A program made the position numbers and the translations under genes. From Bacteroidetes bacterium RIFCSPLOWO2_12_FULL_37_12 (GTDB taxonomy: Bacteria; Bacteroidota; Bacteroidia; 2-12-FULL-37-12), in NCBI GenBank assembly GCA_001769655.1, contig MEPC01000024.1:265572-329571 (forward strand): a stretch of DNA of 64,000 bases, in the 5' to 3' direction. Positions 50,418 to 54,325 of the stretch are shown here, piece after piece; the first letter of the stretch is position 1; the number at the start of each line of letters is the position of its first letter. The notes under the pieces are model-generated. The model was not told the origin of the DNA. It made no database searches and was given only the letters and a program-made list of their open reading frames with translations.

Positions 50418-50481
50418 GGGGGCAGGTGCAAAAGTGCGAAAAAAAATATTAAATCACCTTTTTATGATTTTTAATTGATCA

Positions 50482-50593
50482 GGTTGATACCAAATTTATA
50501 ATTTTCATTCCGGTCTATTTTTTTTTACTTCCGTAAATCGCTTCTATCACATCCGGTTTTTGTGTATTTTTGCTGGTGAAAGGTAGTTTTTTC
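50482..50593 (+). repeat. Direct repeat, copy A (partial)
   Basis: From GGTTGATACC to GGTAGTTTTTT this 110-base stretch matches the right-hand third of the 337-base repeats at 51333 and 53951, including ACATCCGGTTTTTGTGTATT. The copy lies upstream of the PIN toxin gene. It is followed by CTACCGTTTGCAG, where similarity ends. Confidence 0.85.
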
Positions 50594-50644
50594 ACAAGCT
50601 ACCGTTTGCAGATATACTATGGGGACATCGAAAATTCCCGCGGT

Positions 50645-50681: not shown

Positions 50682-51149
50682 ATGAAAATTTATTCAGACA
50701 CATCAACAATCGGGGGTTGCTTTGACGAAGAGTTTCAACAATGGTCTAACGAACTTTTTGACGAGTTTAAGAAAGGAATTGAAACATTAGTTCTCTCCGA
50801 TTTGACGATTCAGGAATTGGAACTTGCGAAAGAAGAAGTTAGAAATAAAGTGAATGAAATTCCTAAGGCAAACATAATTCACCTTGGTATTACAGACGAG
50901 GCAATACATCTTGCCGAGACATACATTTTGGAAGGTGCATTGACAAACAAAAGTTACAACGATGCTCTACACATTGCACTTGCGACAATTTTTAACTCTG
51001 ATGTTTTAGCGAGTTGGAATTTCAAACACATTGTAAATCTTCAAAGGATACGACTTTACAACTCTATTAATTTACGACTTGGTTACAGAATTATTGAAAT
51101 ACGTACACCGAGAGAAATTATAAAATCAAAAGACAATGAAAAAGAATAA
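50682..51149 (+). CDS. PIN-domain toxin candidate (VapC-like)
   Basis: This 155-residue protein resembles PIN ribonucleases: MKIYSDTSTIGGCFDEEF with the first acidic residue D6, TIQELELA with E45, and SYNDALHIALATIFNSDVLASWNFKHIVN with D94. The C-terminus (GYRIIEIRTPREI) is typical of this subfamily. It is probably the toxin of a type II pair, with the small downstream gene as antitoxin. That toxin-first order is less usual, but I know it for this subfamily. It has its own near-leaderless promoter and sits between repeat copies A and B. Confidence 0.85.
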   Translation: MKIYSDTSTIGGCFDEEFQQWSNELFDEFKKGIETLVLSDLTIQELELAKEEVRNKVNEIPKANIIHLGITDEAIHLAETYILEGALTNKSYNDALHIALATIFNSDVLASWNFKHIVNLQRIRLYNSINLRLGYRIIEIRTPREIIKSKDNEKE

Positions 51150-51294: not shown

Positions 51295-51332
51295 CGGACG
51301 GGCAAACAGAACTTCTGCAAACAATTAAAACT

Positions 51333-51669
51333 TTGTTGCGTCCTTATGACAAGCTATTCAGCCACTGTTGCACTGAATCTGCTCTGGTTGAAGTTTTTTT
51401 CCCCCTTGATTGTTGAGTTCTTTTTCTCTATGGGGATTCCGTTAAAAGGTAGAGTGGCAATGTTAAAAGAAATGTGTTCAAGAAGTTTCTTAGAGAATTA
51501 ATTTTTTTATTTTTCTAATTTTTGGCTTCCCTAAAAACAAAATAAACCCTCCGGTTGATAACAAATTTTTAATTTTTATTTCGCTCTATTTTTTTTCTTT
51601 GGTTTATTGCTTCTTATACATCCGGTTTTTGTGTATTTTTGTTGGTGAAATGTAGTTTTTAGACGGACT
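51333..51669 (+). repeat. Direct repeat, copy B (full length, about 337 bases)
   Basis: It begins near GTTGCGTCCTTATGACAAGC and ends at TAGTTTTTAGACGGACT. It closely matches the copy at 53951-54287 from end to end, with about 50 nearly identical bases at the left end. It separates the PIN/antitoxin pair from the ATPase pair. A frame reading LRPYDKLFSHCCTES is open in both copies but ends quickly, so it is probably not coding. After the end come GAAGTTATAGCC and unrelated sequence; 51295-51332 and 51670-51850 hold no gene. Confidence 0.9.
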
Positions 51670-51850
51670 GAAGTTATAGCCAATAGTATTTTACAGGCGA
51701 GTACTTTTTGACACTTTTTACCCTCTGGACATGGGCTACTGTTAGACAATTTATAAGGACACCTGAACACAATCCAGCACGAAAAAAGAAGATTTAATTT
51801 TTGCGCCCATGTACTTTTAAAAAAAATACTTATGCGTTGACTGTTTTACA

Positions 51851-51881
51851 TTTGTTATTTATTAATTATTTCATACTTTTG
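51851..51881 (+). promoter_or_regulatory. Consensus Bacteroidota promoter for the ATPase-PIN pair
   Basis: TTTG (51851-51854), exactly 19 bases, then TACTTTTG (51874-51881). The ATG is 27 bases downstream. This is one of the two perfect -33/-7 arrangements in the window. Confidence 0.72.
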
Positions 51882-51908
51882 GCTTTTTTAAATTGAATTT
51901 TAAATTAG

Positions 51909-53294
51909 ATGAAACTTTTTCTTGATAACTTAAGGGGGTTTAACAACTGCTTTATTGATATAAATCAGGTGAATTTTTTAGTGGGCGAAAATAGCACAGG
52001 TAAGTCCTCTTTCTTATCTATTCTTTCTTTATTTTCAGACACGCAGTTTAACTTCTCTGGTGAATTCAGAAACTCTTTTGTCAATTTCGGTTTGTTTGAA
52101 GACATAATAAATAAAAACAGTTCTAATAATGAAACATTTCATATTGGATTTATTAAGAATGGAAAACAAACACTGCTTGATTCAAATTTTACTTATGATT
52201 CCCTATTATTAGTTTTTAAGGAAAAGGATGGATTCCCCAATATTAGTACAATATTATGTAGAGCAAAAACATCTTTTTTAAAAGTTGAAGTTGGAAAAAC
52301 TGAATTAAATTATTCTCTTTTTTCAGTTAATACATCTTTATATTCAGATAAGCAATTATTTTCAGATATTATTATTAATAAAGAATTCGAGCTAAAGAAT
52401 ATCATTGATAACGGAAATGTAAGTATAAAAGGAATTTCTGGAGAGTTGTTAAGATATATAATAAATGACATTGGTAATATTCCTTTCATGTTTAGGTTCA
52501 GTGAGCATTCTATAAAAGAAACTGAAATTGACAAGAAAAGAAAACTTTATTCTGATTTTAGAAAGAATCAAAGAATGCTTTTTCCAAGAGAAAGAAACTT
52601 GCTAGGAAATACTATTTGGATTGACCCAATAAGGTCAAAGCCTCAACCACTTTACCAACCAACAGACAAGCAATATTCAGCAGAAGGGGAACATATTCCA
52701 ACTATCCTCAGAGATATTTTTGATGATAAAGAATCTCCGAATTCGAAAAGTATTATCAGGTTATTAGAAAGTTTTGGAAATGCATCGGGATTGTTTGATA
52801 AGATTTATATTTCTAAATTACAAAAACAAAAGAAAAATTCTCCGTTTGAAATTAATTTTTCTCTACATGGTAACACGATCAAAATATCTAATATAGGGTA
52901 TGGCGTTTCACAAATCTTACCAATACTCACTGAGATAGCAAGAAACCCAAAAGAAAGTATTTTTTTTATTCAACAAGCGGAGGTTCATTTACATCCGCGT
53001 TCACAGGCATTTTTTGGAGAATTTATTTTCACTCAATTTAAGGAAGAAAACAAAAGTTTTTTTATTGAAACACATAGCGACTATGTAATTGATAGGTTCA
53101 GATTACTAATTCGTAAATCTAAAAGTGAGGAGATTCATAAGAAAGTTAATTTTCTTTTCTTTGAATCAAATAAAGACAATACTGTAACAACGATTTCAAT
53201 AGATAAAAATGGAGATTATGGAGAAGGTCAACCTGAAAATTTCAGAAACTTCTTTTTGAAAGAAGAATTAGATATACTCGGATTTTCAGATTAG
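51909..53294 (+). CDS. AAA/ABC-type ATPase of defence type (OLD-like, no TOPRIM)
   Basis: This 461-residue SMC/ABC-like ATPase starts directly at its first strand. Walker A is GENSTGKS at 26-33. An ABC-signature-like GYGVSQILPIL is near 330, a Walker B-like FIQQAEVHLHPRS near 353, and a switch histidine in ETHSDYVIDRFRLL near 387. In the Walker B region the usual IEQPELHLHP is IQQAEVHLHP, with Gln and Ala replacing Glu and Pro. No TOPRIM nuclease domain follows, unlike true OLD proteins. A PIN-like gene begins 6 bases later, so the nuclease is probably supplied in trans. Phage defence is inferred. Confidence 0.85.
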   Translation: MKLFLDNLRGFNNCFIDINQVNFLVGENSTGKSSFLSILSLFSDTQFNFSGEFRNSFVNFGLFEDIINKNSSNNETFHIGFIKNGKQTLLDSNFTYDSLLLVFKEKDGFPNISTILCRAKTSFLKVEVGKTELNYSLFSVNTSLYSDKQLFSDIIINKEFELKNIIDNGNVSIKGISGELLRYIINDIGNIPFMFRFSEHSIKETEIDKKRKLYSDFRKNQRMLFPRERNLLGNTIWIDPIRSKPQPLYQPTDKQYSAEGEHIPTILRDIFDDKESPNSKSIIRLLESFGNASGLFDKIYISKLQKQKKNSPFEINFSLHGNTIKISNIGYGVSQILPILTEIARNPKESIFFIQQAEVHLHPRSQAFFGEFIFTQFKEENKSFFIETHSDYVIDRFRLLIRKSKSEEIHKKVNFLFFESNKDNTVTTISIDKNGDYGEGQPENFRNFFLKEELDILGFSD

Positions 53295-53300
53295 TAGAAT

Positions 53301-53774
53301 ATGCTATTAATAATAGATACCTGCATTCTTCATAAGGTCTTTAATTCCCAAAGTCCTTACTTTCCTGAATATAAATCTGTGCATAAGTGTATTACAAATT
53401 GCAAAGGTGTAATGATTTATGGAGGGGAAACATTTAAAAAAGAATATAAGGATTTTCTAAGTAGCAAAGAAAATAAAAACAGAAAACTATTTATAGAACT
53501 AAATAACAAAAAAAAAATCAAAGAATTACCAAAAGATGAAGTAGATACTTTAGAAGCAAAGTTATATTTAATTGAAAGATACGGCAAAAATAAGTTTAAT
53601 GATGCACATTTAATTGCTTGTTGTATAATAGGAAAATGCAAACTTATTTGTACTGATGATAGTAGGGCTGATAAATATTTAAAGAACAAAAAATTTTATT
53701 CTAAATCTACAATGCGACCAAGTATTTATAGGAATATTAAGCATCAGCACTTATTATCCAAATGTTGGTCTTAA
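53301..53774 (+). CDS. PIN-like nuclease partner of the ATPase
   Basis: This 157-residue protein starts MLLIIDTCILHKVF with the first acidic residue at D6. E43 in GGETFKKEY, D101 in FNDAHLIACCIIGKCKL and the D119/D120 pair in ICTDDSRADKY complete a plausible PIN active site. Lysine content is high, which suits nucleic-acid binding. It does not look like a plain VapC, because it lacks a paired antitoxin and instead follows an ATPase in one transcript. It probably cuts RNA or DNA when the ATPase senses infection; that is inference. Confidence 0.78.
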   Translation: MLLIIDTCILHKVFNSQSPYFPEYKSVHKCITNCKGVMIYGGETFKKEYKDFLSSKENKNRKLFIELNNKKKIKELPKDEVDTLEAKLYLIERYGKNKFNDAHLIACCIIGKCKLICTDDSRADKYLKNKKFYSKSTMRPSIYRNIKHQHLLSKCWS

Positions 53775-53950
53775 AAACTAACTGTACATAATAAGAAAAA
53801 AATAAAAAGTCATCTATCAAAAATTAAATCTATCAGCGCACACAACGCTACACCTTTTTAGCTCCGTGGCAATTATTTCCGTTCAGACACAGTTCACAAG
53901 TAACAATCGTAATAACAAGAGAACCTCTGGCAATAAAACAACCAAGGTTT

Positions 53951-54287
53951 CGTTGCGTCCTTATGACAAGCTATTCAGCCACTGTTGCACCGAATCTGCC
54001 TCTATCGGAAGTTTTTTTTCCCATTGATTGTTGAGTTTTTTTCTCTATGGGGATTTCGTTAAAAAGATAGTGTGGCAATATTTATAAAAATGTGTTCAAG
54101 AAGTACCTGAGAGAACTTATTTTTTATTTTCTGAATTTTTGACTTCCCTAAAAGTAAAATACTGCCTCTGGTTGATACCAAATTTTTAAATTTCATTCCG
54201 CTCTATTTTTTTTTCTTTGGTATATCGCTTCTAATACATCCGGTTTTTGTGTATTTTTGCTGTTGAAAGGTAGTTTTTAGACGGACT
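53951..54287 (+). repeat. Direct repeat, copy C (full length, about 337 bases)
   Basis: It starts near CGTTGCGTCCTTATGACAAG and ends TAGTTTTTAGACGGACT, matching copy B closely over the whole length. It lies between the ATPase-PIN pair and the DinB-like gene. The flank before it (53775-53950) has no gene, only AGCGCACACAACGCTACACC near 53835. After it come ACTGTTACCAGC and unrelated sequence. Confidence 0.9.
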
Positions 54288-54325
54288 ACTGTTACCAGCA
54301 ATCCTAAAAATCGACATAGCAACCG

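Follow-up and report, generated by a model that had tools for sequence, protein, structure and literature searches.

Two adjacent genes in the window, which is the whole 64,000-nucleotide stretch of the Bacteroidetes bacterium RIFCSPLOWO2_12_FULL_37_12 genome analysed here, encode an ABC/OLD-type ATPase and a small PIN-domain protein. The pair is probably a two-gene module directed against viruses or mobile elements, in which the ATPase would control a PIN RNase (probability about 0.55), and the genomic context makes a role in defence likely. The ATPase gene (51909-53294, + strand) codes for 461 aa with an AAA_15, NsnB/DUF3696-like head and no nuclease domain. It is followed on the same strand, with 6 bases from stop to ATG, by the gene of a predicted VapC-like nuclease of 157 aa (53301-53774) with acids at D6, E48, D101 and D120. 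These open reading frames agree in spacing and length with those given in an earlier note on this DNA, which had proposed an undescribed defence pair. The idea of a defence pair gains support from the obligate association of the two genes, from the fold and catalytic residues of the PIN protein and from the neighbouring defence genes, whereas the word "undescribed" holds only in part, as discussed below. The consensus promoter said to precede the genes was not recovered: no + strand site above threshold lies just upstream of 51909, and the promoter-like sites in the region are no more numerous than expected by chance (15, against 16.0 +/- 4.7 in shuffles).

The ATPase matches the Pfam families AAA_15 (E=2.3e-23) and AAA_21 (E=1.8e-15). 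All the motifs noted earlier are present, namely a Walker A (GENSTGKS, including K32), a signature-like motif (GYGVSQ, residues 330-335), a Walker-B region (QQAEVHLHP, residues 355-363) and a switch histidine (H389, within ETHSD). No TOPRIM or other nuclease domain was detected with Pfam, and the protein ends about 70 residues past the switch histidine. In the family alignment, G26, N28, S29, G31, K32, G330, G332 and Q335 are kept in 33/33 sequences, as are Q355, Q356, E358, H360-H362 and E387-D391. The Walker B is therefore truly altered, but it is not the oddity of the window copy that had been supposed, since only A357 is private to that copy (P in 32/33). QQPE is also found in the ATPase copies embedded in Hma operons or neighbouring AbiE genes, and related DUF3696 ATPases carry EQPE (L101-L104) or ENPE (L105); a PARIS-like one has DEPE. 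Judged from these alignments, Gln at the Walker-B aspartate position marks the window ATPase family, and the catalytic-glutamate position is occupied by a residue other than Glu in the relatives examined. Such a QQ Walker B may slow or abolish ATP hydrolysis. The AlphaFold model of the ATPase has a pLDDT of 80, with residues 157-206 unreliable, and its structural matches are PtuA of retron-Septu and SMC/Rad50 heads.

The 157-aa protein is a true PIN protein, because Pfam (PF01850, E=4.4e-6, above the gathering score), structure comparison and four conserved acids all identify it as such. Its AlphaFold model, built from 37 relatives, has a pLDDT of 89, and most of the best PDB matches obtained with Foldseek are to VapC toxins or archaeal PIN proteins (TM about 0.5-0.66; best E 1.7e-3, probability 1.0), whereas a PIN profile searched against PDB sequences gave spurious matches only. 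D6 and D101 are conserved in 37/37 sequences, E48 in 36/37 (D once) and D120 in 33/37 (E in the remainder). The window protein thus has the fold and the conserved acidic site of a PIN/VapC-like nuclease, which bears out the PIN-like acidic set read earlier from the sequence; the absence of a PIN fold, named in the earlier note as a refutation, does not apply. It is this fold that suggests a specificity for RNA. The window copy lacks the C-terminal tail of about 20 residues typical of most relatives, and carries a private L2 (C2 in relatives) and a C8 (4/37 overall, mostly N8 in relatives). Together with P357A in the ATPase, these differences might indicate a weakened copy.

The resemblance of the ATPase head to Rad50/SMC/OLD proteins would also suit a DNA-targeting nuclease, in which the ATPase, in a Rad50- or RecF-like manner, would place the PIN protein on DNA that is foreign or damaged, and DNA would be nicked instead of RNA; a DNA methylase adjoining the Hma-embedded copies points the same way. 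We consider this quite improbable, given that most of the nearest structural matches to the PIN protein are VapC toxins, which are known RNases, and that an RNA ligase gene comes after the analogous HEC-03 pair.

Relatives of the pair were gathered with the PIN protein or the PIN alignment only as query. This yielded 42 other loci (41 once two near-identical MAG loci are merged), and in 42/42 of them the gene immediately upstream of the PIN gene, in the same orientation, codes for a related ATPase, so that the two genes co-occur more than by chance, as had been proposed for checking. The gap between them ranges from -32 to 13 bases, with a median of 2, across 43 pairs in which some loci are counted twice, and the ATPase is split into two frames at two loci (L032 and L043). 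Pairwise distances of the ATPases and PIN proteins are correlated (r=0.86 overall, r=0.66 in 28 core pairs), and 0/2000 permutations reached as high a value. A single-protein ATPase query gave no match in genome contigs, whereas the PIN alignment did find loci. The hosts comprise Bacteroidota, Acidobacteriota, Thermodesulfobacteriota, Nitrospirota, Pseudomonadota, Poribacteria, Saccharibacteria and an Altarchaeum MAG, although MAG contigs may be misbinned, and intact pairs are present in named Flavobacterium, Pedobacter, Chryseobacterium and Roseivirga genomes. Among 395 genomes sampled evenly across the window's phylum, 7 have the pair, and phyla are mixed among the branches of the ATPase tree. 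Mobility of the pair is not evident, because the PIN family has no match in phage, plasmid and viral-contig collections.

A recognisable defence gene lies within about 5 kb at about 12/41 distinct loci (by inspection, with no control set). In three genomes of one genus (L015-L017), the pair is held in an Hma operon between HmaB and HmaC, one of these genomes harboring two tandem ATPase-PIN pairs. AbiE-like genes adjoin the pair at L018 and L037 (by inspection), and other neighbours are an AriA-like ATPase with a DUF4435/AriB protein (L031), SIR2 with HerA (L027) and a type IIG restriction-modification (R-M) enzyme (L042). Most loci, again by inspection, stand among ordinary chromosomal genes, as would be expected if the two genes had a housekeeping role in RNA processing or the stress response, with no link to phages. 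Such a role is nevertheless very improbable in view of the sporadic distribution, the phylum-spanning mixture in the ATPase tree, the nesting in defence operons and the repeat-bounded cassette found beside R-M and toxin-antitoxin (TA) cassettes in the window's host.

A four-gene cassette coding for a small protein with an MGSTG start, a PfkB-like/nucleoside deoxyribosyltransferase, QueC and an OGG-like protein was also observed after the pair. It lies downstream in five Bacteroidota loci (L026, L027, L033, L035 and L036), which form one clade of the ATPase tree (support 100/99). The MGSTG start recalls the MGTS and MGGS N-termini of QatB and CD-NTases, respectively (PMC13279940), and the context of the cassette suggests defence; a survey assigns QueC "cluster 4", which has a PfkB/NDT neighbour of this sort, to metabolism (PMC13329287). 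The cassette was rejected as an obligate partner, being confined to these five loci and also occurring on plasmids where the pair is absent (L115-L117).

In the host genome, the ATPase-PIN pair lies between two same-direction copies of a dispersed repeat of about 358 bp, one upstream (51319-51676, + strand) and one downstream (53936-54294, + strand), which are 86% identical and form the cassette boundaries. The repeat has 27 matches in its own genome, about a dozen of them near full length, with sharp ends (TAACAAC...GTTA), and gave trivial matches only in 59 relatives. Among 12 intervals of less than 5 kb between neighbouring copies, 11 contain R-M, TA-like, PIN or NTPase genes or the pair itself, the lone exception containing a serine-hydrolase-like gene. 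The R-M genes are of SacI, MvaI/BcnI, MjaI and HindIII type, with a lone methylase in addition, and the others code for PIN, HTH/HigB-like, KAP NTPase and nSTAND NTPase proteins; most are oriented along the repeat (own-genome loci L077-L085 and the window at 50.5-54.3 kb). The repeats and their intervals resemble a system of cassettes that carry defence genes. Genes around the segment are housekeeping-like (radical SAM, DinB-like), and nearby Mpl- and cyanophycin-synthetase-like genes presumably are as well. The TAAC...GTTA-like ends led us to consider classical integron attC sites, which we rejected because attC sites are far shorter than this repeat of about 358 bp, no hairpin was found (z -0.6 and -0.2), no IntI passed the cut-off and the repeat had no Rfam match.

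The neighbouring cassette, outside the pair, begins with a partial repeat copy at its left edge (50479-50619, + strand) and contains a small VapC-like PIN gene of 155 aa (50682-51149, + strand). This gene looks similar to the one at L078:8325-8774, and both are repeat-bounded with no obvious antitoxin. Two proteins with no Pfam match, encoded at L084:664-1179 (172 aa) and L085:4637-5173 (179 aa), are apparently related, and each adjoins a repeat copy.

The presence of ordinary TA-like and PIN genes in the repeat-bounded intervals raises the alternative that the pair is itself a TA-like addiction module, with the PIN protein as a free toxin, the ATPase as its antitoxin and any phage protection incidental. 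The VapC-like fold, the two-gene operon with its gap of about 2 bases and the upstream position of the ATPase, where antitoxins are often found, would agree with this. We regard it as unlikely, since no DNA-binding antitoxin domain is recognised in the ATPase by Pfam, and the nesting in Hma operons and the PARIS/Septu-type architecture of the ATPase favour a sensor; the boundary between TA and defence is, moreover, blurred.

An ATPase-PIN candidate is already catalogued as HEC-03, and sequence comparison indicates that the pair in the window forms its own branch within this kind of system. The HEC name denotes candidates embedded in Hma operons (PMC12111858, PMC12988326), HEC-03 being candidate 3 in PADLOC-DB, as described by papers citing the preprint of Payne et al. 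2024 (doi 10.1101/2024.01.29.577857). For example, a small protein encoded on an Aeromonas plasmid matches HEC-03A (3e-23) and the adjoining DUF3696 ATPase matches HEC-03B (1e-133); the small protein starts MMRAVIDTNVLLVA and keeps PIN-like acids. In both kinds of pair, the gene of a small PIN protein comes immediately after that of a DUF3696/NsnB-type ATPase, and the window family is likewise found inside Hma operons. The window PIN, however, has no match among PADLOC models at E<=1, the HEC-03A model matches neither it (E<=1) nor 14 relatives, and hhalign aligned the window-family PIN with HEC-03A at a probability of only 26% over 42 columns, so that a single PIN family is not supported. The window ATPase aligns with HEC-03B examples at 99.9% over 401 columns (hhalign), but its best PADLOC model is NsnB (2.4e-41) and not HEC-03B (2.5e-23), the window family falls outside the HEC-03B clade (support 100/99), and it has QQPE where the HEC-03B proteins examined have EQPE. 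An RNA ligase gene comes next after the HEC-03 pair in 4/5 lineages (Aeromonas, Azotobacter, Tistrella and Rhodococcus), with HNH in its place in Acinetobacter, a trait as seen in these lineages and not a published criterion, whereas an RNA-ligase profile found nothing at the loci of the window family. These differences are why we treat the window pair as a separate branch. The other refutation named in the earlier note, a clear match of the pair to a named system, thus holds for the kind of system, since HEC-03 is in PADLOC-DB, and not for the branch, whose PIN protein matches no PADLOC model.

The ligase gene hints that the HEC-03 PIN protein may cut RNA. Because HEC-03B groups in the ATPase tree with ATPases having other partners (DUF262, DUF2325 or unassigned), the association of an ATPase with a PIN protein may have had more than one origin, or the partner may have been replaced, in what is a long-branched tree. 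Plasmid operons of HEC-03 type at L102, L106, L108 and L109 have an RNA ligase family gene next. At L101, L103 and L104, uncharacterised proteins of 288-335 aa lie directly 3' of DUF3696 ATPases, and their starts (MLEIIVDSSLF / MKLLLDPRLL) are possibly those of degenerate PIN-like proteins.

The comparison with OLD, Gabija and Septu drawn in the earlier note is apt as an analogy. Menshen (NsnA/NsnB/NsnC) provides the closest model of the ATPase, NsnB, but that system includes an OLD-type TOPRIM nuclease together with a DUF262 gene (PMC10952713), and the window pair is accompanied by neither of them; membership was rejected, as the ATPase match stands alone beside a PIN gene and housekeeping genes. 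PARIS (AriA/AriB) likewise combines an AAA_15 ATPase (AriA model match 1.8e-23) with a small nuclease, yet AriB is a TOPRIM nuclease (DUF4435) and the window partner is a PIN protein, so that PARIS was also set aside. Septu and retron-Septu (PtuA/PtuB), Gabija and OLD have the same ATPase head fold with HNH or TOPRIM nucleases in place of PIN. The window pair has no HNH PtuB, which excludes it from Septu, and its ATPase has no C-terminal TOPRIM (Pfam), which excludes it from OLD and Gabija. A PtuA-like ATPase with a PIN-containing partner is known in ptuXYZ, which differs in having three genes including DUF262, its PIN lacking catalytic residues and being fused to a YoeB-like RNase (PMC11980606), in contrast to a two-gene pair that keeps the PIN acids. 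VapBC shares the PIN fold and acids, but has a small DNA-binding VapB antitoxin; the neighbour of the window PIN is a 461-aa ATPase and not VapB, and VapBC was therefore rejected.

In the anti-virus reading that we prefer, the ABC/OLD-type ATPase would act as a sensor and as a scaffold that keeps the small PIN protein in an inactive state. On an infection cue the nucleotide-bound state of the ATPase would change and the PIN protein would be released or activated, cutting RNA of the cell, with tRNA as the likeliest target by analogy with VapC toxins; the resulting shutdown of translation would stop phage production. We infer mutual binding of the two proteins, control of the PIN protein by the ATPase, the nature of the trigger, RNA as the target and protection against phages. 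RNA cutting is proposed because comparable ATPases are coupled to tRNA-cutting nucleases in PARIS and Septu, AriB cleaving tRNA (PMC12409363) and Septu tRNA-Tyr (PMC13096335), and also because of the RNA ligase gene after the HEC-03 pair. By analogy, a PARIS-like logic, with an ATPase controlling an RNA-cutting effector, is likely in the window pair. Defence by DS-3 and DS-5, both validated systems, requires PIN catalytic residues (PMC13092281); no phage challenge of the present ATPase-PIN family was found in the literature searched. More tentatively, the family may be a distinct phylum-spanning defence system and not an HEC-03 variant, its QQ ATPase being a slow or non-hydrolysing, ATP-bound guard that holds the PIN RNase until nucleotide levels, or the guard itself, are perturbed by infection, with the host-genome copy as one of the repeat-bounded defence cassettes.

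PADLOC-DB 2.0.0 has no model for the PIN partner, so that the pair goes unreported by PADLOC. Being small, and intact in several named genomes, the family lends itself to cloning and testing, and the QQPE motif offers a diagnostic signature as well as a biochemical question, namely whether the ATPase hydrolyses ATP at all. If its role in defence is confirmed, the pair would extend the ATPase-plus-effector immunity represented by PARIS, Septu, Gabija and Menshen by a branch whose nuclease is a PIN protein.
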